Positions 589 through 27,116 of a stretch of 33,676 bases of DNA are shown here, piece by piece; position 1 is the stretch's first letter; every line of letters starts with the position of its first letter. This DNA is from Arthrobacter sp. H35-D1 (GTDB lineage: Bacteria > Actinomycetota > Actinomycetes > Actinomycetales > Micrococcaceae). The notes under the pieces were generated by a model, which was given only the letters and a program-made list of their open reading frames with translations, searched no databases and was not told the origin of the DNA. Location of the stretch: positions 1 to 33,676 of the forward strand of contig NZ_JASISP010000003.1 in the NCBI RefSeq assembly GCF_030063185.1. The letters are read 5' to 3'. A program made the translations under genes and the position numbers.

Positions 589-1356
589 TCAGTTGCGCAC
601 CATGCTCAGTTTCCACAGTTCCGGGCCGTTTTCCACATAGTCCACCGTGAACTTGCCTGCCGCGCGCTGTTCCAGCTGGGCCAGCAACGGCAGCGGGTTG
701 TGGTTGGCGACCAGCAGGATGCCGCGGCCGGTGGTGAGCCCTTCCAAAGCGCCGAAAATGGTGGCGTGGCGGATGGCGTGGGGAATGACGCGGGTGTCCA
801 GCTCGGACAGGCCGGGCTCGTCGTGCCCGCCGCAGGCGCAGCCGCCCTGGGCCGGAACTTCGCTTGCAGTGGCGACAGTGGCGGTGTGGGCTGGCAGCAC
901 CTGTGAGAGTGTGACGCCGGGGTTTTGAGCCAAGGCGGGCAGGACAAGTTCGCTGGCTTGATCCACGAATACTGCTACGGCTTCCTGGAGGCGGCCGCCG
1001 GCATGAACCATGTTGACGGGGTATTCCTGGACTTCCAGTTCCTTCGTTGCGGAGACCAGCCTGGTGCTGTGTGCGGTGGCCAGCGAGGCGACCAGCTTGA
1101 GGGAATCATCACTCAGGTCAGCAGTTTGGAAGGCACCGGCTAGAGCGGCAGCCAACGGCAGCAGTTCCATTTCGGCGAAGTCAACCAGGGCACCTTGATC
1201 TGCTTGGGCCAATTCTTCGCCCGCAGGATTTGTCGCGGCCGCCACAAGATTGCCGCCGAGGGTGAGCACGGTTCCGGCGGCTTCAGCCAGGCGGGTGCGG
1301 GCGTCTTCCAAGGACGCAGCTTCTGTGGAGGAGGATGCGAGAACAAGATTATTCAC
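589..1356 (-). CDS. DUF2249 domain-containing protein, nitrite-reductase locus
   Basis: A 255-residue cytoplasmic protein. The C-terminal third (about 170-255) is a DUF2249 domain: a short Cys-rich lead (CACGGHDE), then LDTRVIPHAIRHATIFGAL, LLVANHNPLPLLAQL and a final strand ending in VENGPELWKLSM. The N-terminal ~165 residues are helical and Ala-rich and I do not recognise them. They lack the His pattern of hemerythrin. The start is a GTG at 1354-1356 preceded by a GAAAGG ribosome site 8 bases away. DUF2249 proteins are often found beside nitrite and NO metabolism genes in Actinobacteria (known association). Here the gene is divergent from the regulator-NnrS-like-NirK set and shares its promoter region, so a role in nitrogen-oxide handling is inferred. 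The biochemical function is unknown. Confidence 0.8.
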   Translation of the reverse strand: MNNLVLASSSTEAASLEDARTRLAEAAGTVLTLGGNLVAAATNPAGEELAQADQGALVDFAEMELLPLAAALAGAFQTADLSDDSLKLVASLATAHSTRLVSATKELEVQEYPVNMVHAGGRLQEAVAVFVDQASELVLPALAQNPGVTLSQVLPAHTATVATASEVPAQGGCACGGHDEPGLSELDTRVIPHAIRHATIFGALEGLTTGRGILLVANHNPLPLLAQLEQRAAGKFTVDYVENGPELWKLSMVRN

Positions 1357-1412
1357 GGTGAAAACCTTTCATGACTGCACGAATTTGTGGCGAATGGCGA
1401 TTCTGCGACTAT

Positions 1413-1427
1413 ATTACTACACTTAAT
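1413..1427. promoter_or_regulatory. Divergent promoter/operator candidate for the nirK module
   Basis: The only AT-rich stretch between the divergent genes. ATTA-N7-TAAT forms a short imperfect dyad at 1413-1427. On the plus strand TACACT (1418-1423) could be a -10 element placing the transcript start near the GTG at 1431. On the minus strand TAATAT (1411-1416 complement) could serve the DUF2249 gene. Overlapping divergent promoters with a dyad are a plausible target for the adjacent Cys-containing regulator, but the dyad is weak. Confidence 0.3.
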
Positions 1428-1430
1428 CCT

Positions 1431-2234
1431 GTGGAAAATAAAAGTCTTGTGCCGACGTCATATGGCCCCCGGCCCGGAGGCCGTGACGCCGTTGCGCCCA
1501 TATCCAAGGCACGCGCGGCGGTGCTTGCCAGGCTGCGCGCAATTGACGGCACGCTCAGCGTGGAACAACTCGCCCTGCAGACGGGCCAACACGCGAACAC
1601 TGCACGCGAACACCTTGAGGCACTTGTCGAGGACGGGTATGCCACCAAGGCCGCAGCCCCCAAGGAAGGCAGGGGCAGGCCGGCCTGGCTGTACCGGCCG
1701 GCACCCGCCCCCGCCGGGCCCGTGGGGTATGCGGCCCTTGCCGCGGCCCTGGCCCAGCACTTGGCAACCCACAGCGAAAACCCGACAGCCGAAGGTGAAG
1801 CGGCCGGCCGCGCCTGGGCTCGCGCCATGCCACCAGCCAGTCCAAGGATCAACGGTGACGAGCCAAAGGCCAGCGGTGCCAAACGGGACGGCGCCAAACT
1901 GTCGGCCGCTGGAGCCAAAGCCACCCGCAGCCGCGTGGCCACGGCCCTTGAGCAGGCAGGATTCGGCGTGCAAAAGAACCGTGACGCCACCGAACTGACC
2001 CTCACCGTCTGCCCCATTGTCGAGGCAGCACGGGAAAACCCCGACGTGGTGTGTGCCGTTCACCTCGGCCTGGTCAAGGAACTGATGGCAGGCAGCGGAC
2101 TGCCGGAGGAGAACGTGGCGCTGCTGCCGTTTGCCGGTCCCGGCATCTGCACCCTGCACATGCCCTCGATCGCACCCGCGAAGGATGCAGCCGCGAACGC
2201 GGCGAAGATCGAAGCGGGGCCCGCTGCCCCATGA
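1431..2234 (+). CDS. Winged-helix regulator with Fe-S-type cysteines (SufR-like)
   Basis: A 267-residue regulator if it starts at the GTG at 1431. An upstream in-frame ATG at 1371 has no ribosome site and would add a non-conserved tail, and a GTG at 1449 is also possible. The N-terminal ~25-95 residues form a winged helix (RAAVLARLRAIDGTLSVEQL, then HANTAREHLEALVEDGY and a GRGRPAW wing). The C-terminal part carries C194, C208 (CX13C, in LTVCPIVEAARENPDVVC) and C240 (GICTLHM), with a conserved HLG after the second Cys. This layout resembles SufR-type DeoR/ArsR-like repressors that bind a 4Fe-4S cluster; such a cluster reacts with NO. Its place at the head of the nirK operon suggests an NO or redox sensor for this module (inference). 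Its TGA overlaps the next ATG by four bases. Confidence 0.75.
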   Translation: MENKSLVPTSYGPRPGGRDAVAPISKARAAVLARLRAIDGTLSVEQLALQTGQHANTAREHLEALVEDGYATKAAAPKEGRGRPAWLYRPAPAPAGPVGYAALAAALAQHLATHSENPTAEGEAAGRAWARAMPPASPRINGDEPKASGAKRDGAKLSAAGAKATRSRVATALEQAGFGVQKNRDATELTLTVCPIVEAARENPDVVCAVHLGLVKELMAGSGLPEENVALLPFAGPGICTLHMPSIAPAKDAAANAAKIEAGPAAP

Positions 2235-3382
2235 CTTCCACCAGGCCGGCTGGCGTTGCACCTGTCAAAGCCGACACCCGCAGCCCCCGCCGACCAACCA
2301 TGCTGCGCCGGCCCGCCTTCCGCATGATGTTCCTGTTGCCTGCGGGCGCGGCACTGCTTATTGGCCTCAACGCCGGCCTGCAACTTTTGGGGGCCGACGC
2401 CCCGCTGAAGATCGACCGCTTCCCCCAAGTCCACGGCATGCTGCTGGTGCTCAGTTTTGTAGGCACCGTCATCTCGCTGGAGCGCTCCGTGGCCTTGAAC
2501 AAGGCATGGGGCTACGCCGCACCGGCGCTGTTGGGCGTCGCCGGACTGCTGATGATTTCACCCCTTGAGCTGTGGATCGGCAAGAGCGTTCTGCTGGCCG
2601 GAACCATCGCCATGACGGTTGTCTACATCCCGTTGTGGCGCCGTCAATACGACAACGTGGTGCTCATCCAGATCCTCGGCTCGGTCTCAGCCGTGGCTGC
2701 TGCGGCACTGTGGCTGCGTGTGCCCAGCATCCCGCACTTGCTGCCGTTCCTCATCACCTATGTAGTGCTGACCATCGCCGGCGAACGGCTGGAACTGGCG
2801 CGGATCGGCATCAACAGCCCCAAGGCCGAACCGCTCCTGCTCGCCGCATCGTTCGCCCTGCTGGCCGCCACCACTGCCACACTGCTGTGGCCGTCCGCCG
2901 GCTACCCGCTCTACGGGGTGCTGCTGCTGGCCCTCGTCGGCTGGCTCACCGTGTACGACGCCGCCCGCAAAACCATCCGCTCCCAAGGCCTGCCGCGCTA
3001 CATTGCCGCGTGCCTGCTGGCGGGCTACAGCTGGTTGGCGATTGCCGGCGTCGTGCTGGCCCTGCATGACGGGCCACTGACCGGGGCCTCGTACGACGTC
3101 GCCGTCCACGCAGTGTTCCTGGGCTTCACCATCTCCATGATCATGGCCCACGCACCTGTCATCCTGCCCGCCGTGCTGCGCAAACCGCTGCCCTACACCT
3201 CCGGGTTTTGGCTGCCGGCGGGACTCTTGCACGCATCCCTGGCCCTACGCTTGGGATTGGGCGACGGCGCTGGCCTGAACGGCGCGTGGGTCACCGGCGG
3301 CGTCCTGAACGTCATTTCCATCCTGCTGTTCGCCGTCATGGCGGTTTGGCAGGCCACCCATGCGCAGAAAGCAGCAGCGTGA
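2231..3382 (+). CDS. Polytopic membrane protein, NnrS-like
   Basis: A 383-residue integral membrane protein with about 11-12 hydrophobic segments after a short basic N-terminus (MTSTRPAGVAPVKAD). The start ATG at 2231 overlaps the regulator stop (ATGA). Segments include FPQVHGMLLVLSFVGTVISL (about residues 68-87) and a late helix VHAVFLGFTISMIMAHAPVI, which resembles the His-bearing helices of NnrS, a haem/copper membrane protein that eases nitrosative stress in denitrifiers. Similarity is by motif only and many database entries would read hypothetical membrane protein. It lies between the regulator and NirK with overlaps on both sides, so it is co-translated with both. A role in NO tolerance or in copper/haem supply to NirK is inferred. 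Confidence 0.68.
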   Translation: MTSTRPAGVAPVKADTRSPRRPTMLRRPAFRMMFLLPAGAALLIGLNAGLQLLGADAPLKIDRFPQVHGMLLVLSFVGTVISLERSVALNKAWGYAAPALLGVAGLLMISPLELWIGKSVLLAGTIAMTVVYIPLWRRQYDNVVLIQILGSVSAVAAAALWLRVPSIPHLLPFLITYVVLTIAGERLELARIGINSPKAEPLLLAASFALLAATTATLLWPSAGYPLYGVLLLALVGWLTVYDAARKTIRSQGLPRYIAACLLAGYSWLAIAGVVLALHDGPLTGASYDVAVHAVFLGFTISMIMAHAPVILPAVLRKPLPYTSGFWLPAGLLHASLALRLGLGDGAGLNGAWVTGGVLNVISILLFAVMAVWQATHAQKAAA

Positions 3383-6138
3383 ACATCGGCTCCGCACCCA
3401 TCCCAGGCCCGGGTCCAACGTCGGGCCCAACTCCGGCCACCGCCGGCAGGACACCGATGAACCGGGCCGCCTGGCACCTGCGCGCCAACGCCCCGGCAGT
3501 GTTTTGGCTGCTGGCGCTGGTGGTTGTGGTGTTGTTCCACCGCAACATTGCCGTGTCCGGCTGGCTCATGGTGCACCTGCTGCTGCTCGGGGCCGTCACC
3601 AATTCCATCCTTGTCTGGAGCTGGCACTTCGCTCAGGCGCTGCTGCGCGGGCCGAATCCCGGCAACCGGGGCATGGCGGCGCGGCTGATCGGCTTGAACG
3701 TGGCGGTGACCCTCGTGGTGGTGTCAATGATCTTGAATGTGTGGGTCCTGACGCTCATAGGCAGCATCGGTGTTGGGCTGGCCGTTGCCGCCCACGCAGT
3801 GGTCCTGGGGCTGCGGGCCCGCAAGGCGCTGCCGTCCCGGTTTGGCCCCACCGTTTGGTACTACGTGGCCGCGTGCCTGCTGCTGCCGGTGGGTGCAGGC
3901 GTGGGGGCTGCGCTGGCATCCGGCGTCAGCGGCGAAGCGCATGTCCGGCTGTTGCTGGTGCACCTGGTAGTGAACGTGCTGGGTTTTGTAGGGCTGACGG
4001 TGCTGGGCACACTCATGACGCTGCTGCCCACCATGCTGCGCACAAGAGTGGCCGACGGCGCCGAAGCCGTTGCGCGCCACGGTGCTGTCCCGCTGCTGTC
4101 CGGGGTGTTGCTCACGGCTGCCGGAGCCGCCGCCGGGGTCATGTTCCTGTGTTCGGTGGGGCTGGCCATCTACTTGGGCGGCGTCATCTATATTTGCGTG
4201 CCGTTGGCCAAGGTGGTGCGCTCGAAGCAACCCACGACATTCGCCCCGCTATCGGCCATTGCCGGGCTGTTGTGGCTGCTGGTTTCACTCGTCTGGCTGC
4301 TGGCACCAACGTTTACGGCGGGCAGCTGGGAGGCACTGCAGCGCGGGATCGAGTCGGTGGTCCCCGTGCTTGCCGCAGGTTTTGCCGCCCAAGTGCTCGG
4401 AGCTGCGTTGACGTACCTGGTGCCCGTTGTTTTGGGCGGCGGGCCCGCGGTGCTCAAGCATCGCACTGCCATTTTGGACAAGGCCGGCTGGTTTCGTGTG
4501 GTGCTGGCCAATGCCGCACTTGTGGTCTCGCTGCTCCCGGTGCCCAGCCTGGTGCGCGTGGGAACCACGTTCCTGGTGTTTGGCGCTCTGGCCTGGTTCC
4601 TGCCGCTGCTCGGCTTGGCCCTGTTCAGCAAAGCTCCCGCAGTCCCGAAAGGAACCCCGAAAGCGCAGCCGGACAAGCCCTCCGCAGCTGAGCCGAGGAG
4701 TGCGCGCGCTGCTGCGGCGCCCACAGCTGCGTATGACCCGGCCCCGCGCAGGAGGTTGGGTCAGGGCGCCACCGCACTGGCCGTCGTCGTGCTTGTCATT
4801 GTGGCAGGGATTATTGCCGATCCGCAGTCCATGCCGGGGTTTGCCGGGGTGGTGCAGCAGCCTGCCGCCGCGGCCACGGGCCAAACCACCACGGTGGAGA
4901 TGACAATGAAGAACATGCGCTTCCACCCGGACAAGGTGGACGTGCCGGTGGGGGACAAGCTTGTCATCAACCTGGTCAATGAAGACAACATGGTGCACGA
5001 CCTCGTCACGGCCATGGGTGCAGAATCCGGGCGGCTATACCCGGGCGAGAAAGCCACCATCGACGCGGGCGTGATTGGCGCCGACGTGGCCGGTTGGTGC
5101 AGCGTGGTGGGACACAAGCAGCAGGGCATGGTGTTCAGCATTGTGGCCACCGGCGGGGCAGCTGCAGCGCCGCCGGCCGCGCCCGGCGAGAGCATGCCCG
5201 GCGAGACCATGCCCGGCGGGAGCATGCCCGGCATGGACCACGGCGGGAATTCGGGCGAGCCCGCCGCCTTTGACTTCATGAAGGAGCCGGGCGCAGAATT
5301 CACCGCCCACGACGCCGTGCTGCCGCCACTGCCCTCCGGAACAGTGCACGAAGTGGCCATCAAGGTCACCGAGGAGGAACGCGAAGTGGCACCAGGGGTC
5401 ACGCAGCGCCTGTGGCTTTTCAACGGCACGGCACCCGGGCCGACCCTGCGCGGCAAGGTGGGGGACAAATTCAAGATCACGCTGAGCAACGACGGGTCCA
5501 TGGGACATTCGATCGACTTTCACGCCGGGGCGCTGGCGCCTGACGAACCCATGCGCACCATCAATCCGGGGGAGTCGCTGACCTACAATTTCACGGCCAC
5601 CCGCGCCGGAATCTGGCTCTACCACTGCAGCACCATGCCCATGAGCCAGCACATCGCCAACGGCATGTTTGGCGCCGTGGTCATTGACCCGCCCAACTTG
5701 CCGAAGGTGGAGAAGGAATACGTGCTCATCCAGTCCGAGCTTTACGCCGGAGGGCAGGGCGGCGTGGCCGACTTGGCGAAAATCCAAGCGGAGAAGCCCG
5801 ACGCCGTGGTGTTCAACGGCTATGCGAACCAGTACAAGTTCCGCCCGCTGCCGGCCAAGGCGGGCGAGCGGGTGCGGATCTGGGTGCTCGACGCCGGGCC
5901 GAACCGGGCGTCGTCCTTCCACGTGGTGGGCGGCCAGTTCGACACGGTCTGGAGCGAGGGTCGGTACTTGATTGACGGCTCCGACCCGGCCGCCGGCGCG
6001 CAGGTCCTGCCGCTGGCACCGGGGCAGGGCGGATTTGTGGAACTCGCGTTCCCGGAGGCCGGCAACTACCCCTTTGTTTCGCACAGCATGCTCGACGCCG
6101 AACGCGGCGCCAGCGGGGTGTTCCAGATCGCGAAGTGA
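3379..6138 (+). CDS. nirK: Membrane-anchored copper nitrite reductase fused to a cupredoxin
   Basis: A 919-residue three-part protein starting at a GTG (3379) that overlaps the previous stop (GTGA). Residues ~35-420 form about ten membrane helices with His-bearing segments (VHLLLLGAVTNSILVWSWHF; VHLVVNVLGFVGLTVLG), NnrS-like. After a charged linker and one more helix (~465-490), residues ~503-590 are a cupredoxin with type-1 copper ligands H540, C574, H579 and M584. A Met/Gly/Pro-rich linker (~595-625) follows, then the nitrite reductase (~630-919). That domain shows type-1 ligands H710, C750, H758 and M763, type-2 ligands H715, H749 and H902, and catalytic D713 and H848. The enzyme reduces nitrite to NO outside the cytoplasm; the cupredoxin probably passes electrons to the type-1 copper, and the membrane part may take them from quinol or a cytochrome (inference). 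All copper ligands are intact, so it should be active. Confidence 0.88.
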   Translation: MNIGSAPIPGPGPTSGPTPATAGRTPMNRAAWHLRANAPAVFWLLALVVVVLFHRNIAVSGWLMVHLLLLGAVTNSILVWSWHFAQALLRGPNPGNRGMAARLIGLNVAVTLVVVSMILNVWVLTLIGSIGVGLAVAAHAVVLGLRARKALPSRFGPTVWYYVAACLLLPVGAGVGAALASGVSGEAHVRLLLVHLVVNVLGFVGLTVLGTLMTLLPTMLRTRVADGAEAVARHGAVPLLSGVLLTAAGAAAGVMFLCSVGLAIYLGGVIYICVPLAKVVRSKQPTTFAPLSAIAGLLWLLVSLVWLLAPTFTAGSWEALQRGIESVVPVLAAGFAAQVLGAALTYLVPVVLGGGPAVLKHRTAILDKAGWFRVVLANAALVVSLLPVPSLVRVGTTFLVFGALAWFLPLLGLALFSKAPAVPKGTPKAQPDKPSAAEPRSARAAAAPTAAYDPAPRRRLGQGATALAVVVLVIVAGIIADPQSMPGFAGVVQQPAAAATGQTTTVEMTMKNMRFHPDKVDVPVGDKLVINLVNEDNMVHDLVTAMGAESGRLYPGEKATIDAGVIGADVAGWCSVVGHKQQGMVFSIVATGGAAAAPPAAPGESMPGETMPGGSMPGMDHGGNSGEPAAFDFMKEPGAEFTAHDAVLPPLPSGTVHEVAIKVTEEEREVAPGVTQRLWLFNGTAPGPTLRGKVGDKFKITLSNDGSMGHSIDFHAGALAPDEPMRTINPGESLTYNFTATRAGIWLYHCSTMPMSQHIANGMFGAVVIDPPNLPKVEKEYVLIQSELYAGGQGGVADLAKIQAEKPDAVVFNGYANQYKFRPLPAKAGERVRIWVLDAGPNRASSFHVVGGQFDTVWSEGRYLIDGSDPAAGAQVLPLAPGQGGFVELAFPEAGNYPFVSHSMLDAERGASGVFQIAK

Positions 6139-6234: not shown

Positions 6235-6804
6235 TTACTGGCCGACGCGGCCGTCGACGCATTCGCGCAGCAGGTCGGCATGCCCGCAGTGCCTGGCGTA
6301 CTCCTCGATCCTGTGCACCAGCAACTCCCGGACGGCGATGCCTGCCTTGCCCAGGCGGTCATCCGGATTCGGGTGCTCGGCCAAGAGGGCGTCGGTCGCG
6401 GCCTGTTCGCGCATGAGGTCCGCGTAGGCGGCGTCGACAACCGTCTGATCGGCGATGGCGCCGTCGAAATCCGCGCCCCCTGGGCCGTATATTTTTGGCA
6501 ACACATCCCCGGAGGTGATCCAGTTTCCCCAGTCTCGTTCCACCTCGGCAAGGTGACGGAGCAGGCCGAGCAAGGACATGGTGGAGGGAGGCACGGACCG
6601 GCGAGCCAGCTGTTCCGGCTCCAACCCTGCGCACTTCATGCCCAGTGTCAGCCGATAGTTGGACAGATAGTTGTGCAGGGTCGCCAGTTCGCCGTTCGGG
6701 CTTGCTTCACCGGTGTCTCGCGGATCGTCATCCGGGTCAACCCACATGTCCGGGTGGACGGATGACTTTGTCCATCGGGTTGGCTTTTGCGTCATGCTGG
6801 TCAT
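6235..6804 (-). CDS. DinB family protein (DUF664)
   Basis: A 189-residue four-helix-bundle protein. It has the DinB/DUF664 pattern: SLLGLLRHLAEVERDW around the first metal-binding His, then VRELLVHRIEEYARHCGHADLLRE near the C-terminus with the remaining His ligands. Members of this superfamily include metal-dependent thiol transferases, and in Actinobacteria they are suspected to use mycothiol. The substrate cannot be told from sequence. The start ATG at 6804 has only a weak upstream purine run (GTAGGCG); a second ATG three codons in is possible. It converges with nirK across a 96-base gap with no clear terminator. Confidence 0.85.
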   Translation of the reverse strand: MTSMTQKPTRWTKSSVHPDMWVDPDDDPRDTGEASPNGELATLHNYLSNYRLTLGMKCAGLEPEQLARRSVPPSTMSLLGLLRHLAEVERDWGNWITSGDVLPKIYGPGGADFDGAIADQTVVDAAYADLMREQAATDALLAEHPNPDDRLGKAGIAVRELLVHRIEEYARHCGHADLLRECVDGRVGQ

Positions 6805-18881: not shown

Positions 18882-21200
18882 TCAGCCGAAGTACTTCGGC
18901 AGCGTCTCCTCGTGTGCTTCACGGAGTTCAGACAGCGGGGCAGTGAACAGGCCCTGCAGGTCGAGTGCGCCGCCGGCGGCGTCAACAACTCCGATGCGGG
19001 AGACCGGGAACCGCCGGGCGGTGCACATGTCGTTGAAGCGGACTTCCTCGGAGCGCGGCACAGCCACAATGGCGCGTCCCTGCGTTTCGGAGAACAGCAA
19101 CGTGAACGTGTCGACGCCGTCGCGGGCGGCAACTTCGTCCAGGGCAACGCGTGCGCCGGTGTTGAAACGCAGCGCCGACTCAACCAGGGCTGCTGCGAGG
19201 CCACCTTCGGAGAGATCGTGGGCGGAGTCGATCATGCCGTCGCGGGAGGCGTTGATGAGGATTTCGCCCAATTCACGCTCGCGCTCCAGATTTACGGCCG
19301 GCGGGAGCCCTCCGAGGTGTCCGCGCAGGTTGGCCCACTCGGAGCCGTCCATGTCGTTAGCGGTGGTTCCGAGCAGGTAAATGGCCTGCCCGTCCTCAGC
19401 CCAGCCCGACGGCGTGCGGCGGGCAACGTCGTCGAACTTGCCCAACACTGCCACCACGGGGGTGGGGTGGATGGGCGTGCTGCCGGTCTGGTTGTACAGC
19501 GAGACGTTGCCTCCTGTGACCGGGATGCCCAGCACCATGCAGGCGTCGGAGAGCCCGCGGATGGCTTCGGCCAGCTGCCACATGACGTCCGGGTCTTCGG
19601 GGGAGCCGAAGTTCAGGCAGTCGGACACTGCCATGGGGATGGCGCCGGAGGTGGCGACGTTGCGGTAGGCCTCGGACAAGGCGAGCTGGGCGCCGTGGTA
19701 CGGGTCCAGGAAGGTGTAGCGGCCGTTGGCGTCGGTGGCCAGGGCCACGCCCAGCCCGGTCTCCTCGTCGACACGGATCACGCCGGAGTCGTCGGGGAAG
19801 GCCATGGCAGTGTTGCCGCCCACGTAGCGGTCGTACTGGTTGGTGATCCAGTCCTTTGAGCACATGTTGGGGGAGGCGATGAGTTCCAGCACGGCGGCCT
19901 TGAGCTCATCGGCTGAGGAGGGCCGGCCGCCGTCGTGGACGGAACCGGTGAAGGTGTCGGCTTGAAGCGCGTCCTGCCATTCCGGCCGAGCGTAGGGGCG
20001 GTCATAAACCGGTCCATCGTGCGCCACGGTGCGGGGGTCGACGTCCACAATGACTGCGCCGTCCCACTTGATGATCAAGCGTCCGGTGTCGGTGACTTCG
20101 CCGAGCCAGGAATACTCCACGGCCCACTTGTCCATGACGGCTTCGAAGGCTGCCACGTTCGCGGGGGAGACCACCGCCATCATGCGTTCCTGGGACTCGG
20201 ACATGAGAATTTCGCCCGGTGTGAGGCTGGGATCGCGCAGTAGTACGGACGTCAGCTCAACTTCCATGCCGCCGTCGCCGTTGGAGGCCAGCTCGGACGT
20301 GGCGCAGGAAATGCCTGCTGCACCGAGGTCTTGGATGCCTTCGACGAGGGAACCCTTGAACAGTTCCAGGCAGCACTCGATGAGCACTTTCTCGGCGAAG
20401 GGGTCACCCACCTGCACGGCGGGGCGCTTGGAAGGCTTCGTGTCATCGAAAGATTCCGAGGATAGGATCGAGGCCCCGCCGATGCCGTCGCCACCGGTGC
20501 GGGCGCCAAAGAGCACCACCTTGTTGCCCTTGCCGGAAGCGTTGGCCAGGCGAATGTCCTCGTGGCGCATGACGCCCACGGCCAGTGCGTTGACCAGCGG
20601 GTTGCCCTGATACACCGAGTCAAAGACCATTTCGCCGCCAATGTTTGGCAGGCCCAAGGAGTTGCCGTAGCCGCCAATGCCGGCCACCGCCCCGTGCATG
20701 ACGCGGGCGGTGTCGGGGTGGTCGATGGCACCAAAACGCAACGGATCCATCACGGCCACGGGGCGTGCACCCATGGAGATGATGTCGCGGACAATGCCGC
20801 CAATGCCGGTTGCGGCGCCCTGGTACGGCTCGATCATGGAGGGGGAGTTGTGCGACTCAATCTTGAACGTCACGGCCCAGCCGTCGCCCAAGTTGGTGAC
20901 GCCGGCGTTTTCGCCAATGCCCACCAGCATGTCCTTCTTCATTTCCTCGGTGACCTTTGCACCGAACTGGCGCAGGTGGTTCTTGGAGGACTTGTAGGAG
21001 CAGTGCTCGCTCCACATGACGGAGTACATGGCCAGCTCGGCGGCGGTGGGGCGGCGGCCCAAAACCTTCACGACGTCGTCGAACTCGTTTTGCTTCAAGC
21101 CAAGCTCGGCCCACGGCAGCTCCACCTCGGGGGTGGCTGCAGCGGTTTCAACGGTGTCGATGTTGAATTTCTTCGCGGGGTCGGTAGCGATCTCGCTCAT
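18882..21200 (-). CDS. purL: Phosphoribosylformylglycinamidine synthase subunit PurL
   Basis: A 772-residue small-type PurL, the synthetase subunit of FGAM synthase in de novo purine synthesis. With PurQ and PurS it converts FGAR, glutamine and ATP to FGAM. The catalytic His region is [11 protein letters not shown] (H66). Further landmarks are [68 protein letters not shown], and in the second half [27 protein letters not shown] and [11 protein letters not shown]. The length and motifs are those of intact enzymes. The ATG at 21200 directly follows the purQ stop (TAAATG), so translation is coupled. It is the last gene of purSQL and a terminator follows. Confidence 0.98.
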
Positions 21201-21953
21201 TTATTTGTCTCCCAGAAGTGTGTTCAGCACCGACGTGATGAAGCCCAGGCCATCGGTGCCGGTGTGGGCGGGGCCGTATCCGGTCTCCACTGCGTGTTCG
21301 GGGTGCGGCATAAGGCCCACCACATTGCCGGCGGCGTTGGAAATACCGGCAATGTTGCGGCGTGAGCCGTTGGGGTTGCGGCCCACGTAGCGGAACGCCA
21401 CGCGGCCCTCGGCCTCAAGGGCGTCAAGGGTCTTTTCGTCGGCTATGTACTGGCCGTCCTGGTTCTTCAGCGGAACCGTGATGTCTTGGCCCGCGGCGTA
21501 CGCGTTGGTCCATGCGGTGGCGTTGTTTTCCACGCGCAGCACCTGATCGCGACACAGGAACTTCAAGTGGTCGTTCTTGATCATGGAACCTGGCAAAAGG
21601 TGTGCTTCGGTCAGGATCTGGAAGCCGTTGCAAATACCCAGCACGGGCAGCTTGGCATCCGAGTTTGCCGCGTCGATGATCTGGGCCATCAAGGGAGCAA
21701 ATCGGGAGATGGCGCCTGCGCGCAGGTAGTCGCCATAGGAGAAGCCGCCGGGGATGATGACGGCGTCAACATCGGCCAGGGCGGTATCGGCATGCCAAAG
21801 TTCGACGGCGGTGGCGCCGGAGAGGCGCACGGCGCGGACTGCGTCTCGGTCATCGAGGGTGCCGGGAAAGGTCACTACGCCGATGCGGGCACCCGCCAGA
21901 CGGGAATCAACAGGAGCCTGGAAGGCCCCGCCAATCAAGGGAGTTTCTGTCAT
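21201..21953 (-). CDS. purQ: Phosphoribosylformylglycinamidine synthase subunit PurQ
   Basis: A 250-residue class I glutamine amidotransferase that supplies ammonia to PurL. The nucleophile is C108 in [13 protein letters not shown], and the His/Glu pair lies in [10 protein letters not shown] near residue 220. An [17 protein letters not shown] segment precedes the nucleophile elbow and matches PurQ rather than other amidotransferases. The N-terminus carries about 20 extra residues ([20 protein letters not shown]) before the usual [10 protein letters not shown] start. The ATG at 21953 lies two bases after the purS stop. Confidence 0.98.
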
Positions 21954-22634: not shown

Positions 22635-25600
22635 ATGAGTTATCTGAACACGGTTCGCCGTCCCAAAGGTGGGCGGATTGCGGTCACGGCGGGAGTGTTG
22701 GCTGCCGGAGTTGTTGCGGCCATGATGGGCCCGGTCTTTTCCCTCGCGACGGCAGGCCAGGCGGTTGCCGCAGATGCCGGAAGCTACGAGGAGCAAGTTC
22801 TTGCCAAAAATGGCGACAACGCCATTGACCCGGCCCTTGGCCGCTTCTATCGAATCCCTGCCCTCGCCGACCTCGGCGGCGGCGTGGTGTTGGCCTCGTA
22901 TGACGGCCGCCCGGACGGTGCCGATGCGCCGTCCGCCAATTCAATTGTGCAGCGCCGCAGCATTGACGGCGGCAACACCTGGGGTGCGCCCACCTACATT
23001 GCCCGCGGCCAGGAGGCGAAGAACGGCAACAAGAAATTCGGGTTCAGCGACCCCAGCTACGTCGTTGACAAGGTCACCGGCGATGTCTTCAACTTCCACG
23101 TGTATTCAAAGGACGTGGGTTTCCAGGGAAGCGGCTTTGGCAATGACGACGCCGACCGCAACATCATCGGCACGGAAGTTTCCGTCTCCAAGGACAAGGG
23201 CCTGAGCTGGTCAACGGATCCGGCCAACATGCCGGTTCTGCCCCCTGCAGACTATGCAGCTGGTTCGAAATTTGCCGACTTTGACGGCCCCCTCATCACC
23301 GATGTGGTCAAGCCCGTTGGCGACCCCACCAATGTTGGTGGGGTCTCCGGCGTCTTCGCGGCTTCCGGTGAAGGAATCCAACTGCAATACGGCGAACACA
23401 AGGGCCGCCTCATCCAGCAGTTCACCGGCAAGGTCAAGCAGGCCGATGGTTCTGTTCCGTACCAGGCGTACAGCGTGTATTCCGATGACCACGGAGCAAC
23501 CTGGGAGCGCGGCGAGTTCACCGGCACCGGCATGGATGAGAACAAGACCGTGGAACTCTCCAACGGCGATGTCATGCTCAACTCGCGTGCCAGCAGCGGC
23601 GGCAATGGTGGACGCAAGGTTGCCATTTCCAAGGATGGCGGCCAGTCGTACGGCCCCGTCACGATTGACGCCACGTTGACGGATCCAGTCAACAACGCCT
23701 CCATCACACGCATGTACCCCAACGCAGCCCAAGGCTCGGCTGAGGCAAAGATGCTGTTGTTCTCCAACGCGAACTCCAGCAGTGGCCGCCAGAATGGCAC
23801 CATCCGCTATTCCTGCAACGACGGGACCAGCTGGAGCGCCGGCAAGCAGTTCAAGGCCGGTGCCATGAGCTACTCCACCGCCACGGCCCTGAGCGACGGG
23901 ACCTTTGGTGTCTTCTACGAAGGCGACAGCAACACCATGACCTTCGGCAAGTTCGACGCCGCCTGGCTGGGTGTCGACTGCGAAAATTCCATGACTGCTG
24001 TGCTCTCTGCTGCCCCCGTTTCAGGAGCCAACGGGGCAAGTGTTTCAGCGCAGCTGACTGTGACGAACAATGGCACGGAAACGCTGTCTGGTGCCACCGC
24101 GTCGTTTGCTGCCAAGGCAGGCTGGAACTTTGACTCGGTGGTGGTTCCCGACGTTGCGCCAGACGCCACGGTGACAGTGGAAGTCCCGCTCACCATCCCT
24201 GAATACGCGAAGGCAGGAAACATCAACCTGTCGGCTTCGCTCTCACTGGGGGACCAGACAGTTGCAGCCACCGTGCCGGTGACCATCACCGGCGGCGCCA
24301 CGAAGAACATCGTTGGCCTCGACATCAAGGGATCAGCAACGGACATTGCTCGCGACCTCGGGGCAGACCCCTACGTTGTGGGCAGCAAAGTTCCCTACAC
24401 ATTTGTGGTAAGCAGCCTCAGCAACGTCGCCGTCAACGCGGTGCCGCTGACAGGCAACTTTGATCCTCTGGTGCCTGCCGACCGTGGCGGCGCCACCAAC
24501 GCCGGAAACTGCCGCTTCAACAACCTTGCAGTGTCTGGGAACTTCAGCTGCACCACCCCTCGTCACCAAGTCACGGCCGAGGAATTGGCGAATGGATTCT
24601 TTGTTCCGCTGACCACGTGGGAAGCAACAGCCACCGGAGCCACCACGCAGAACTACACCGTCACCGGGGCGGAAGTGGATTTGCTTCTGCGGAAGCCTGC
24701 AGTATCGGTGGAGTACACCGCGGGGGCATTGATCGATGTCGACGAAAGTGGCTTTGCCACCGTCGGCGACACCATCACCTATACGGGCCATGTCGCCAAC
24801 ACGGGCAACGTCAAGCTGACGAACATTGCTGTCCCTGGCCAGGCTGGCTTTGACTTGGACATTGCGGCCAGCAAGACCCTGACACGCGTTTACACATTGA
24901 CGGCAGCAGACGTGGCGGCCAACAAGGTAGCAGCCAAGGATCTGTCGGCAATCGCCTACAACGGGAAAAAGGCCGTTTCCGCTTCATCGAGTGCTCCGGT
25001 GGTCAAGGCGTGCGCTGATGAACTGTGCGGTGAAGAGCCGCCGATGGAGAACTTGATCCCACAAGGCGAGATCAGCATCGAGTCTGTCTCCTCCGAGGAG
25101 CTCACGGGGGAAACCGCCCCCAGCGGTCCGGCGGCAGCGCTTCTTGACGGCGATGTTGAGTCCTTCTGGCACACCAAATGGTCCGGCACACCGGACGATT
25201 TCCCCCACTCGGTGGTTTTCGATCTGGGCAAGGAATACCAAGTTACTGGTTTCGAATACACACAGCGCCAGAATGGTGCGAACGGCAGGATAAAGGATTA
25301 CGAGATCCATGTCTCCGAGAGCCCCACGGAGTTCGGTACAAAGGTGGCAAGCGGTACATTTGCGGCTGTCAACGAGAGCCAGCGCATCACCATTGGCGGC
25401 AACAAAGTAGGCCGCTACGTGAAACTTGTTGGCCTGAACTCCATCGCCGGCAACGAATTCGCCGGCGGGGCAGAGGCCAACATCGGTGGACTGGTGACCA
25501 GCGACGAAACTGCAAGCATCGCTGCGACACCGGGGACAGTGGAGGCTGGCAAGGACGTATCGCTTGCACTCTCCGGCTTTCCGGCAAGCAGCGAAGTGGA

Positions 25601-27116
25601 ACTGGCCATGGAAGGTGGCGTCGCCCTTGGCAATGTCACCACTGATGCCTCCGGCAACGCCACTCAGGCCGTCACAGTTCCGGTGGACACCGCTGCAGGA
25701 AACTACGCGGTAACGGCCGTATCAGGAGCAACCAACGCCACCGTGACGCTCGTCGTCACGGCAGCGCCCACTACCGGCGGCCCCGTTGTTGGAGCCATCA
25801 TCGCGGGTGAACGCGCTGATTCGTCCCGTGACTTGGCTGCCAATCCGTACAGCGTTGGTCAACAGTTGCCGTACAACTTCGTTGTGAACAGCACTGCAGA
25901 CATCGTTTCCACTGTTTACCCGACCGCCGGAGACTTCACCGGGTTCAACATCTCAGGGACGCCCAATTGCCGGTACCGGGACATCCCCGTCGGCGGCGGC
26001 TACACCTGCACCACGGCCAAGCGCGTCGTCACGGCGGAGGACGTTGCCAATGGCTTCTTCCAGCCCGTCACGAAGTGGGCTGCTGAAGGGACCGGTGCCA
26101 CCACGGTGGATTACACCATCGACGGCGGCGAAGTGGACGTTTTGGTCCGCGAGCCCTCCTTGGCGCTGGCTATAGGAACAGGCGTCCTGGAGGACAAGGA
26201 CGACGACGGCTACGCCAGCGTCGAGGACATTGTCAGCTTCCCCGTCACGGCTGAGAACGATGGCAACGTTGCGTTGACGGATGTTGCTCTGCCCGGTGTT
26301 GATGGCGCGGCGGCAACCCTTGCTGCCGGAGCAAGCACTGCCGGAACCATTGAGCACACCGTGACAGTGGGCGACTTGGTGGCTGGCCAGGTTGCCGGCG
26401 TTTCAGTCTCAGTGGCTGCCAAGAACGGCGCAAAGGATGTGTCCAAGGATGCAACTGGAACGGCACTGGAGCTGACACTGGCTCCGGAGCCGACTCCGGA
26501 GCCGACTCCGGAGCCGACTCCGGAGCCGACTCCGGAGCCGACTCCGGAGCCGACAACGGAGCCGACAACGGAGCCGACAACGGAGCCGACAACGGAGCCG
26601 ACGAGCGAACCGACGGCAACCTCTGCACCCGATGAAGCCACCGGTGCCGTGAATGTTGGAACAGTGGCGGCCGGCGAGGCCGTGACCATCACCGGTGAGA
26701 ACTTCAAGCCGGGAACCACCGCCACCTTCACGCTTGACTCGGACCCGGTGGTGCTGGGCAGCGCCATTGTTGCAGCCAACGGGGCAGTTTCCCTGACGGC
26801 GAGAGTGCCGGCCGATGTTCCCGCTGGCGGGCACACAGTGGTCATCTCAGGAACGGGCGTGGACGGCGAAGCCGTTGAAGTCAGCATTCCGCTGACAGTG
26901 GTTGCGGCCGGCACCACGCCTTCCGCCAGCGCCACTGCTGGAGCAAGCCAGCCTGCAACAAGCCCCACGGCAGGCATTGATGGAGCAGGCTCCGGGGACG
27001 ATCTGGCCAACACTGGCGCCAGCATGCTGCCGTTCGGTTTAGCTGGCGGCATGCTGGTCTTGCTGGGTGGTTTGATTCTCATGCGCAGGTCCTCCGTGCG
27101 GGCCGCCCGCCACTAG
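22635..27116 (+). CDS. Secreted, wall-anchored multidomain exo-sialidase
   Basis: A 1493-residue exo-alpha-sialidase. A signal peptide (residues 1-46, ending AVA-AD) precedes a six-bladed sialidase domain (~50-450) with Asp boxes (SIDGGNTWG, SKDKGLSWS, SDDHGATWE, SKDGGQSYG). Active-site candidates are R73 (YRIPAL), D97 (acid/base), E302, R318, R385 and the nucleophile Y413 (MSYSTAT); their spacing agrees with the Micromonospora viridifaciens enzyme. Then come a NEW3/CARDB-like domain (~455-550), wall module 1 (~557-795), an F5/8C-CBM32-like domain (~805-955), an Ig-like domain (~965-1045), wall module 2 (~1050-1282), an EPTP/EPTT stalk (~1284-1326), another Ig-like domain (~1335-1425) and the sortase signal LANTG (1457-1461) with a final helix and RRSSVRAARH. 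It cleaves terminal sialic acids from glycans at the cell surface. No sialic acid uptake or catabolic genes are nearby. The ribosome site is GAAAGGA before ATG. Confidence 0.93.
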   Translation: MSYLNTVRRPKGGRIAVTAGVLAAGVVAAMMGPVFSLATAGQAVAADAGSYEEQVLAKNGDNAIDPALGRFYRIPALADLGGGVVLASYDGRPDGADAPSANSIVQRRSIDGGNTWGAPTYIARGQEAKNGNKKFGFSDPSYVVDKVTGDVFNFHVYSKDVGFQGSGFGNDDADRNIIGTEVSVSKDKGLSWSTDPANMPVLPPADYAAGSKFADFDGPLITDVVKPVGDPTNVGGVSGVFAASGEGIQLQYGEHKGRLIQQFTGKVKQADGSVPYQAYSVYSDDHGATWERGEFTGTGMDENKTVELSNGDVMLNSRASSGGNGGRKVAISKDGGQSYGPVTIDATLTDPVNNASITRMYPNAAQGSAEAKMLLFSNANSSSGRQNGTIRYSCNDGTSWSAGKQFKAGAMSYSTATALSDGTFGVFYEGDSNTMTFGKFDAAWLGVDCENSMTAVLSAAPVSGANGASVSAQLTVTNNGTETLSGATASFAAKAGWNFDSVVVPDVAPDATVTVEVPLTIPEYAKAGNINLSASLSLGDQTVAATVPVTITGGATKNIVGLDIKGSATDIARDLGADPYVVGSKVPYTFVVSSLSNVAVNAVPLTGNFDPLVPADRGGATNAGNCRFNNLAVSGNFSCTTPRHQVTAEELANGFFVPLTTWEATATGATTQNYTVTGAEVDLLLRKPAVSVEYTAGALIDVDESGFATVGDTITYTGHVANTGNVKLTNIAVPGQAGFDLDIAASKTLTRVYTLTAADVAANKVAAKDLSAIAYNGKKAVSASSSAPVVKACADELCGEEPPMENLIPQGEISIESVSSEELTGETAPSGPAAALLDGDVESFWHTKWSGTPDDFPHSVVFDLGKEYQVTGFEYTQRQNGANGRIKDYEIHVSESPTEFGTKVASGTFAAVNESQRITIGGNKVGRYVKLVGLNSIAGNEFAGGAEANIGGLVTSDETASIAATPGTVEAGKDVSLALSGFPASSEVELAMEGGVALGNVTTDASGNATQAVTVPVDTAAGNYAVTAVSGATNATVTLVVTAAPTTGGPVVGAIIAGERADSSRDLAANPYSVGQQLPYNFVVNSTADIVSTVYPTAGDFTGFNISGTPNCRYRDIPVGGGYTCTTAKRVVTAEDVANGFFQPVTKWAAEGTGATTVDYTIDGGEVDVLVREPSLALAIGTGVLEDKDDDGYASVEDIVSFPVTAENDGNVALTDVALPGVDGAAATLAAGASTAGTIEHTVTVGDLVAGQVAGVSVSVAAKNGAKDVSKDATGTALELTLAPEPTPEPTPEPTPEPTPEPTPEPTTEPTTEPTTEPTTEPTSEPTATSAPDEATGAVNVGTVAAGEAVTITGENFKPGTTATFTLDSDPVVLGSAIVAANGAVSLTARVPADVPAGGHTVVISGTGVDGEAVEVSIPLTVVAAGTTPSASATAGASQPATSPTAGIDGAGSGDDLANTGASMLPFGLAGGMLVLLGGLILMRRSSVRAARH
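26485..26604 (+). repeat. 12-bp tandem repeat encoding the EPTP/EPTT stalk, 10 copies
   Basis: Ten contiguous 12-bp units begin with CGGAGCCGAC. The first five units end in TC (coding PEPT), the next four end in AA (coding TEPT) and the last ends in GA. The in-frame unit length allows copy-number change without a frameshift. Confidence 0.9.

Follow-up and report, generated by a model that had tools for sequence, protein, structure and literature searches.

A copper nitrite reductase fused to a cupredoxin and a twelve-helix membrane module in Arthrobacter, and a second membrane protein encoded beside it

The window analyzed here is a stretch of 33,676 nucleotides from Arthrobacter sp. H35-D1 (contig NZ_JASISP010000003.1, positions 1 to 33,676). 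In it, a single open reading frame (3379..6138, forward strand) encodes a chain of 919 residues that combines a membrane module of 12 helices, an anchor helix, a cupredoxin, and a copper nitrite reductase (NirK). The frame is real, and the observation of an earlier sequence-only reading, that a nitrite reductase, its own cupredoxin, and a polytopic membrane part share one chain, is borne out by the frame itself, by Pfam, by the copper ligands, and by a structural model. Directly upstream lies a gene for a second membrane protein, which we call the partner; it accompanies the fused gene in most loci and, in one genome, replaces the module in the fusion. A far-reaching interpretation, rather less likely than not, is that module and partner are two unrecognised branches of the haem-copper oxidase and NnrS neighbourhood, forming a paired membrane complex wired to NirK, with the cupredoxin-NirK part joined to either half or to neither. 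Such a built-in haem machine would either feed electrons from quinol to the reductase or take up the nitric oxide (NO) that it makes.

The fused chain and its copper sites

Two start codons are candidates for the fused gene: a GTG at 3379, which overlaps the upstream stop codon, and an ATG at 3457 (residue 27). Residues 1-17 have a predicted local distance difference test (pLDDT) score under 50 in an AlphaFold2 model built from 49 aligned rows. That model has a mean pLDDT of 88, mostly above 90 in the membrane part, and a predicted template modelling score of 0.66; it gives, in order, 12 helices, a 13th helix, the cupredoxin, and NirK, where the earlier count had been about ten membrane helices. 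The cupredoxin (4876..5154, approximately residues 500-592) has a type-1 copper site formed by H540, C574, H579, and M584, and Pfam places Cupredoxin_1 at residues 493-562 with 46.6 bits against a cut-off of 27. The NirK part (5296..6135, approximately residues 640-919) has the complete ligand sets for type-1 (H710/C750/H758/M763) and type-2 copper (H715/H749/H902) together with the catalytic Asp and His (D713/H848), and Cu-oxidase_3 covers residues 663-773. TIGR02376, the NCBIfam equivalog for NirK, matches residues 655-915 with an expectation value (E) of 2.2e-48 and 165.3 bits; this does not reach its cut-off of 296.3, which is a score threshold and not a functional feature. Foldseek and VIA searches with the model confirmed the two-cupredoxin fold of the NirK part.

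We scanned genome contigs for relatives and kept the best 80 of the 237 stretches found (L005-L084), to which all counts of loci below refer. The same fused chain is encoded at all 80 loci, 78 of which are actinobacterial by record title, and the nearest relatives are from Arthrobacter, at 84-88% identity. All 13 copper-site residues named by the sequence-only reading stand at the positions it gave; in an alignment of the window protein with the 80 loci (81 sequences), 12 of them are identical throughout and M763 is kept in 78.

The best match of the fused chain among Protein Data Bank (PDB) sequences is the NirK of Hyphomicrobium denitrificans (2dv6, E 6e-50), whose structures (2dv6, 6tfd, 6tfo) are also the best Foldseek match. 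Like the window protein, this enzyme has an N-terminal cupredoxin ahead of a NirK core, and the first domain of 2dv6 aligns weakly with the window cupredoxin; unlike the window protein, it has no membrane module. The Foldseek and VIA lists for the full model were filled by NirK rows and carry no information on the module.

A closer likeness has been published. PMC4770552 describes a NirK of approximately 900 amino acids in Propionibacterium acnes with a transmembrane domain "of unknown function", and in this species and its kin a membrane part of 400 amino acids precedes a cupredoxin with the motif CX4HX4M and then NirK, a layout identical to that in the window. The window protein is a member of this published architecture. 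Three things described below go beyond it: a placing of the module among known families, the gene for the partner, and a swap of domains. The sequence-only reading had stated that similar actinobacterial fusions exist and that the role of the membrane part is not settled, and PMC4770552 supports it on both counts. As far as it is accessible, that paper assigns no identity to the membrane part and does not mention an upstream partner; we found neither in the open-licence literature.

Topology and conserved residues of the membrane module

The module (3457..4626, residues 27-416) is followed by the 13th or anchor helix (4744..4818, residues 456-480), both on the forward strand. In the window protein, the inside carries 26 lysine and arginine residues and the outside 2, a bias shared by 49 of 49 fused rows. 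With 13 helices, this bias indicates an N-in/C-out chain in which the anchor helix places the copper domains outside.

Conservation was measured on the 49 fused rows and on an enlarged set of 59 that also takes in ten divergent copies, six of them unfused and four fused, from among 13 divergent loci fetched. All 59 rows have H66 in transmembrane helix 2 and H195 in helix 6, at a distance of 6 and 10 residues from the outer ends of their helices; W299, R373, and Y162 are likewise invariant. The invariant His of the module are limited to these two helices; helix 10 carries Q338, kept in 58 rows.

The most divergent copy of the module (L136 3663-5933, forward strand, genome G050) has 31% identity, keeps an HxH motif in helix 6, and has P in place of Q338. 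No nar, nir, or NO genes were recognised near it by eye, and it perhaps has another function.

A second membrane protein accompanies the module

The partner gene (2231..3382, forward strand) shares 4 nt with the fused gene; its product has 383 amino acids and approximately 12 helices by hydropathy. In 74 of the 80 loci, a homologue on the same strand immediately precedes the fused gene, and H68, H293, H307, M303, E84, and R85 are 100% conserved in 75 rows.

Another view of the association comes from 60 sampled genomes of the class. The module is present in 14 of them, in eight fused with cupredoxin-NirK and in six as a separate open frame (L134-L139) with no cupredoxin or NirK within the 6 to 12 kb fetched; three of these six are flagged with internal stops, and their open frames still cover most of the module. 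The partner is present in eight genomes, all of them among the 14 that carry the module (hypergeometric P 1.2e-6, shared ancestry ignored). One of the eight, G026, has a short fragment near a contig end, and in two the module is unfused.

Two genomes show the parts in other arrangements. On one contig of G056, module, partner, and a 462-aa cupredoxin-NirK each have their own gene, and this contig also has nitrate reductase genes (Pfam matches to molybdopterin, delta subunit, and gamma subunit families). In G074, it is the partner that is fused to cupredoxin-NirK, in an 859-aa frame (L164 6558-9137, reverse strand), and the module has a gene of its own on that contig. The partner profile matches this fusion at residues 34-389 (E 1e-119), Pfam finds the copper domains, and the alignment with the window chain begins at the anchor helix and extends through the whole of NirK, with 43% identity over 482 columns. 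This partner-cupredoxin-NirK layout was not met in the literature examined. Taken with the window fusion, it means that either membrane protein can carry the same copper enzyme. We infer that module, partner, and cupredoxin-NirK would form one three-part complex whose pieces are fused differently in different genomes. The earlier proposal of a self-contained nitrite reductase looks doubtful, since a second membrane protein goes along with the chain and in one genome replaces the module in the fusion.

Possible kinship of the two membrane proteins

Direct searches gave little for either protein. Against Pfam, the module of the window protein had no match to NnrS or COX1 at 0.01, NnrS was not listed for the 49 fused modules at E <= 1 (where filters drop weak matches), and the window partner had no match at E <= 10. 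PHROGs gave no match for the fused protein or for the partner, the PDB searched with the module profile gave none at E <= 1, and a plasmid collection gave none to the module. Profile comparison was made with hhalign, with reversed sequences as controls; a further control with unrelated membrane families, three of whose clusters were large enough, gave a best E of 0.047.

For the partner, six proteobacterial homologues aligned with NnrS at E 1.8e-5 over 314 columns (probability 78%; reversed controls 0.34 and 0.36). With all 54 rows, E was 6.2e-4 over 112 columns, and with the actinobacterial rows 0.0017. L116, one of five proteobacterial partner homologues, matched PF05940, the NnrS family, at E 0.051 with nearly the whole profile aligned. 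Features in common with NnrS include 12 hydrophobic peaks and polar residues that are conserved in several helices, 2, 6, and 10 being three of them. The partner may thus be a remote relative of NnrS, a protein that relieves NO-derived iron stress. PMC1274295 calls NnrS a hypothetical haem-copper membrane protein.

For the module, the strongest comparisons were with the haem-copper oxidases. The 59 rows aligned with a set of 14 oxidase-superfamily proteins at E 2.1e-4 (probability 46%; reversed 0.59 and 0.61), and the six unfused copies alone at E 1.1e-4 (56%; reversed 0.10 and 0.17). A HMMER profile of the same oxidases, run on 238 membrane open reading frames, matched three of 93 module proteins at 1.4e-7, 9.7e-7, and 9.8e-6; its eight other matches had E 5e-85 or better, two of them being part of the profile. 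Pfam detected COX1 in one of the 49 fused modules (E 1.3e-4) and in two of the ten divergent proteins, both unfused copies (E 8.8e-6 and 0.0029, below the cut-off), where the best score, 25.3 bits in an unfused relative, does not reach the cut-off of 34.8 bits. The likeness to subunit I of haem-copper oxidases and NO reductases (PF00115) is local, around the HxH of helix X, on which the aligned segment puts the helix-6 motif of the module. In oxidase subunit I, the His that bind haem and CuB lie in helices II, VI, VII, and X; the module does not have this full set.

Module and partner also aligned with each other, at E 3e-4 over 311 columns (probability 40%; reversed 0.23 and 0.31). Against the six proteobacterial partner homologues alone, the module gave no signal (E 0.096, or 0.037 for the unfused copies), and a comparison of NnrS with the oxidases (E 0.009 with six, 0.038 with fourteen) is not relied on. 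The best supported kin of the module are oxidase subunit I, locally, and the upstream partner, in each case as apparent remote homology of modest strength.

NnrS as the family of the fused module is unsupported both by Pfam and by profile comparison. The sequence-only reading had called the membrane part NnrS-like; the module itself has no NnrS match, and what stands of that description is that, through its relation to an NnrS-kin neighbour, the module is near NnrS at one remove.

The operon and its genomic setting

Upstream of the partner gene, and overlapping it by 4 nt, is a regulator gene (1371..2234, forward strand) whose product has a helix-turn-helix (HTH) domain. A homologue is present at 65 of the 80 loci. 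C214, C228, C260, and H231 are invariant across 61 rows, namely the window protein and 60 of 69 matches (E under 1e-60, plus strand). As described in PMC12343034, ArnR of Corynebacterium is a repressor with a [4Fe-4S] cluster that acts on narKGHJI and hmp and loses its DNA binding in the presence of NO, and it has an HTH, three Cys (179, 193, and 223), and a conserved His nearby. The spacing of the Cys is 14 and 32 in the window regulator and 14 and 30 in ArnR, a comparison made from that description and not by sequence alignment; by this analogy, the window regulator resembles ArnR.

A DUF2249 protein is encoded divergently from the operon (589..1356, reverse strand). In the fetched flanks of the 80 loci, DUF2249 was found in 64, NarK in seven, and a relative of qNOR in five. 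The genome of Arthrobacter sp. H35-D1 itself has NarG and an 826-aa protein in which a NorB cytochrome c-like domain is fused to COX1, which we take to be a quinol-dependent NO reductase; no NnrS was found in this genome at E <= 1. With NarG and a NorB-type NO reductase, the genome can be that of a truncated denitrifier. Intrasporangium calvum, according to PMC6349771, is an actinobacterial truncated denitrifier, with NirK placed after the bc1 complex.

The plasmid collection held eight records with proteobacterial partner homologues, at 35.6-38.9% identity. We examined the neighbourhoods in six of these records, four annotated and two without annotation. All four annotated neighbourhoods contain DUF2249 and a metal-sulfur cluster assembly factor, with no nirK listed, and, in varying combinations, hemerythrin, NnrS, an Rrf2 regulator, and NO reductase or Hmp. 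In one of them, from Variovorax boronicumulans, NnrS comes directly after the partner homologue, the two genes overlapping by 1 nt.

Other features of the window and of the loci are recorded here in their own right. Just downstream of the fused gene, on the opposite strand, is a gene for a mycothiol-S-transferase family protein (6235-6804). Two adjacent purL-/purQ-like genes with AIRS domains (FGAR-AT linker) and GATase_5 lie at 18882-21953 (reverse strand), and a 1493-aa protein with BNR_2 (sialidase-like) and F5/8 type C domains is encoded at 22635-27116 (forward strand). Two of the 80 loci, L006 (Sporosarcina beigongshangi, 74% identity) and L028 ("Bacillus sp. AZ43", UNVERIFIED_ORG, 52% identity), carry an actinobacterial fused gene; these records are probably mislabelled or contaminated, or otherwise reflect gene transfer.

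Nitric oxide handling, electron entry, or anchor

The explanation that we favour, at rather less than even confidence, is a NirK that receives electrons from its cupredoxin and is held to a haem module of two NnrS/oxidase-like proteins, which deals with the NO produced, under an ArnR-like repressor. The fused chain would be a copper nitrite reductase anchored in the cytoplasmic membrane and facing outward, reducing nitrite to NO at the type-2 copper with electrons that arrive through the type-1 copper of NirK, probably from the fused cupredoxin; the cupredoxin in turn would be supplied from outside, for example by a cytochrome bcc branch. The module, as a presumed member of the haem-copper oxidase/NnrS neighbourhood, would most likely use H66 and H195 to bind haem, and perhaps copper, close to the outer face, and would form a complex with the NnrS-related protein encoded upstream. 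This pair would most likely act as NnrS does in proteobacteria, at the very source of NO, binding or buffering it and protecting iron, and the ArnR-like [4Fe-4S] repressor would turn the operon on once NO appears.

Nearly as likely is that the 12-helix part, with the partner, is the point of electron entry. It would oxidise menaquinol or draw electrons from bcc and pass them through a haem at the outer face to the cupredoxin and NirK, making the whole a nitrite-reducing quinol or haem oxidoreductase. This would explain the covalent order of membrane module, cupredoxin, and NirK, and it fits the position of H66 and H195 near the outer face, where the cupredoxin sits, the local kinship of the module with oxidase subunit I, and the finding of one or the other membrane protein joined to the same cupredoxin-NirK. 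That G056 keeps all three as separate genes on one contig agrees with it as well; since the module there is unfused yet present, this genome does not help in choosing between electron entry and NO handling. Against electron entry stand two points from PMC4770552: actinobacterial NirK with a cupredoxin and without a fused membrane part exist (a separate module there was not looked for), and the N-terminal cupredoxin of the known enzyme is too far from the core for effective transfer. We slightly favour NO handling because of the first of these and because relatives of the partner occur in NO-related clusters without a listed nirK, once beside NnrS.

It is unlikely that the module merely holds NirK at the membrane or aids copper loading, with its His as structural or transient copper ligands. 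In favour of this reading, cofactor binding by the module is a prediction, and genes that match CopD weakly, below the cut-off, adjoin the unfused module in G040 (L138) and nirK in G056 (L163). Against it, five residues invariant across all 59 rows, together with the conserved second membrane protein, exceed the needs of an anchor, and the nitrite reductase of G056 is not fused to a module of this kind.

Several observations weigh against NO handling by an oxidase-related pair. Genes related to NO surround any nitrite reductase gene, and genomic context is therefore no proof of NO handling. The hhalign probabilities (46% and 56% for module and oxidases, 40% for module and partner, 78% for partner and NnrS) are modest, and the lowest E from a reversed control was 0.011. 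Without the divergent copies, the 49 fused rows reached only E 0.002 with the oxidases and E 0.007 to 0.013 with the partner. The match to the oxidases covers a local stretch of 93-109 columns, and its register is disputed, hhalign placing it at helices IX-X and Pfam at the start of COX1. In the window protein the second His of the helix-6 HxH is V197, and a His is found there in six of 59 rows, all among the ten divergent ones. No match was obtained between the module and NnrS (E 0.42 and 0.1) or between the partner and the oxidases (E 0.36 and 0.46). The partner is absent nearby in six of the 80 loci (L051, L067, L069, L077, L080, and L081), and the divergent fusions L140 and L141 have none in flank or genome. 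The swap was seen in one draft genome, 84% complete. Finally, when cupredoxin and NirK were superimposed jointly on the Hyphomicrobium enzyme with VIA, the root-mean-square deviation was as large as 25 A; the modelled placing of the cupredoxin therefore differs from the known structure or is unreliable.

What powers the NirK of actinobacteria, and which role its large membrane part plays, are questions left open by PMC4770552. The partner gene, the two invariant His, and the natural domain swap make both directly testable. If the kinship proposed here is true, module and partner would add two branches to the superfamily of oxidases, NO reductases, and NnrS.

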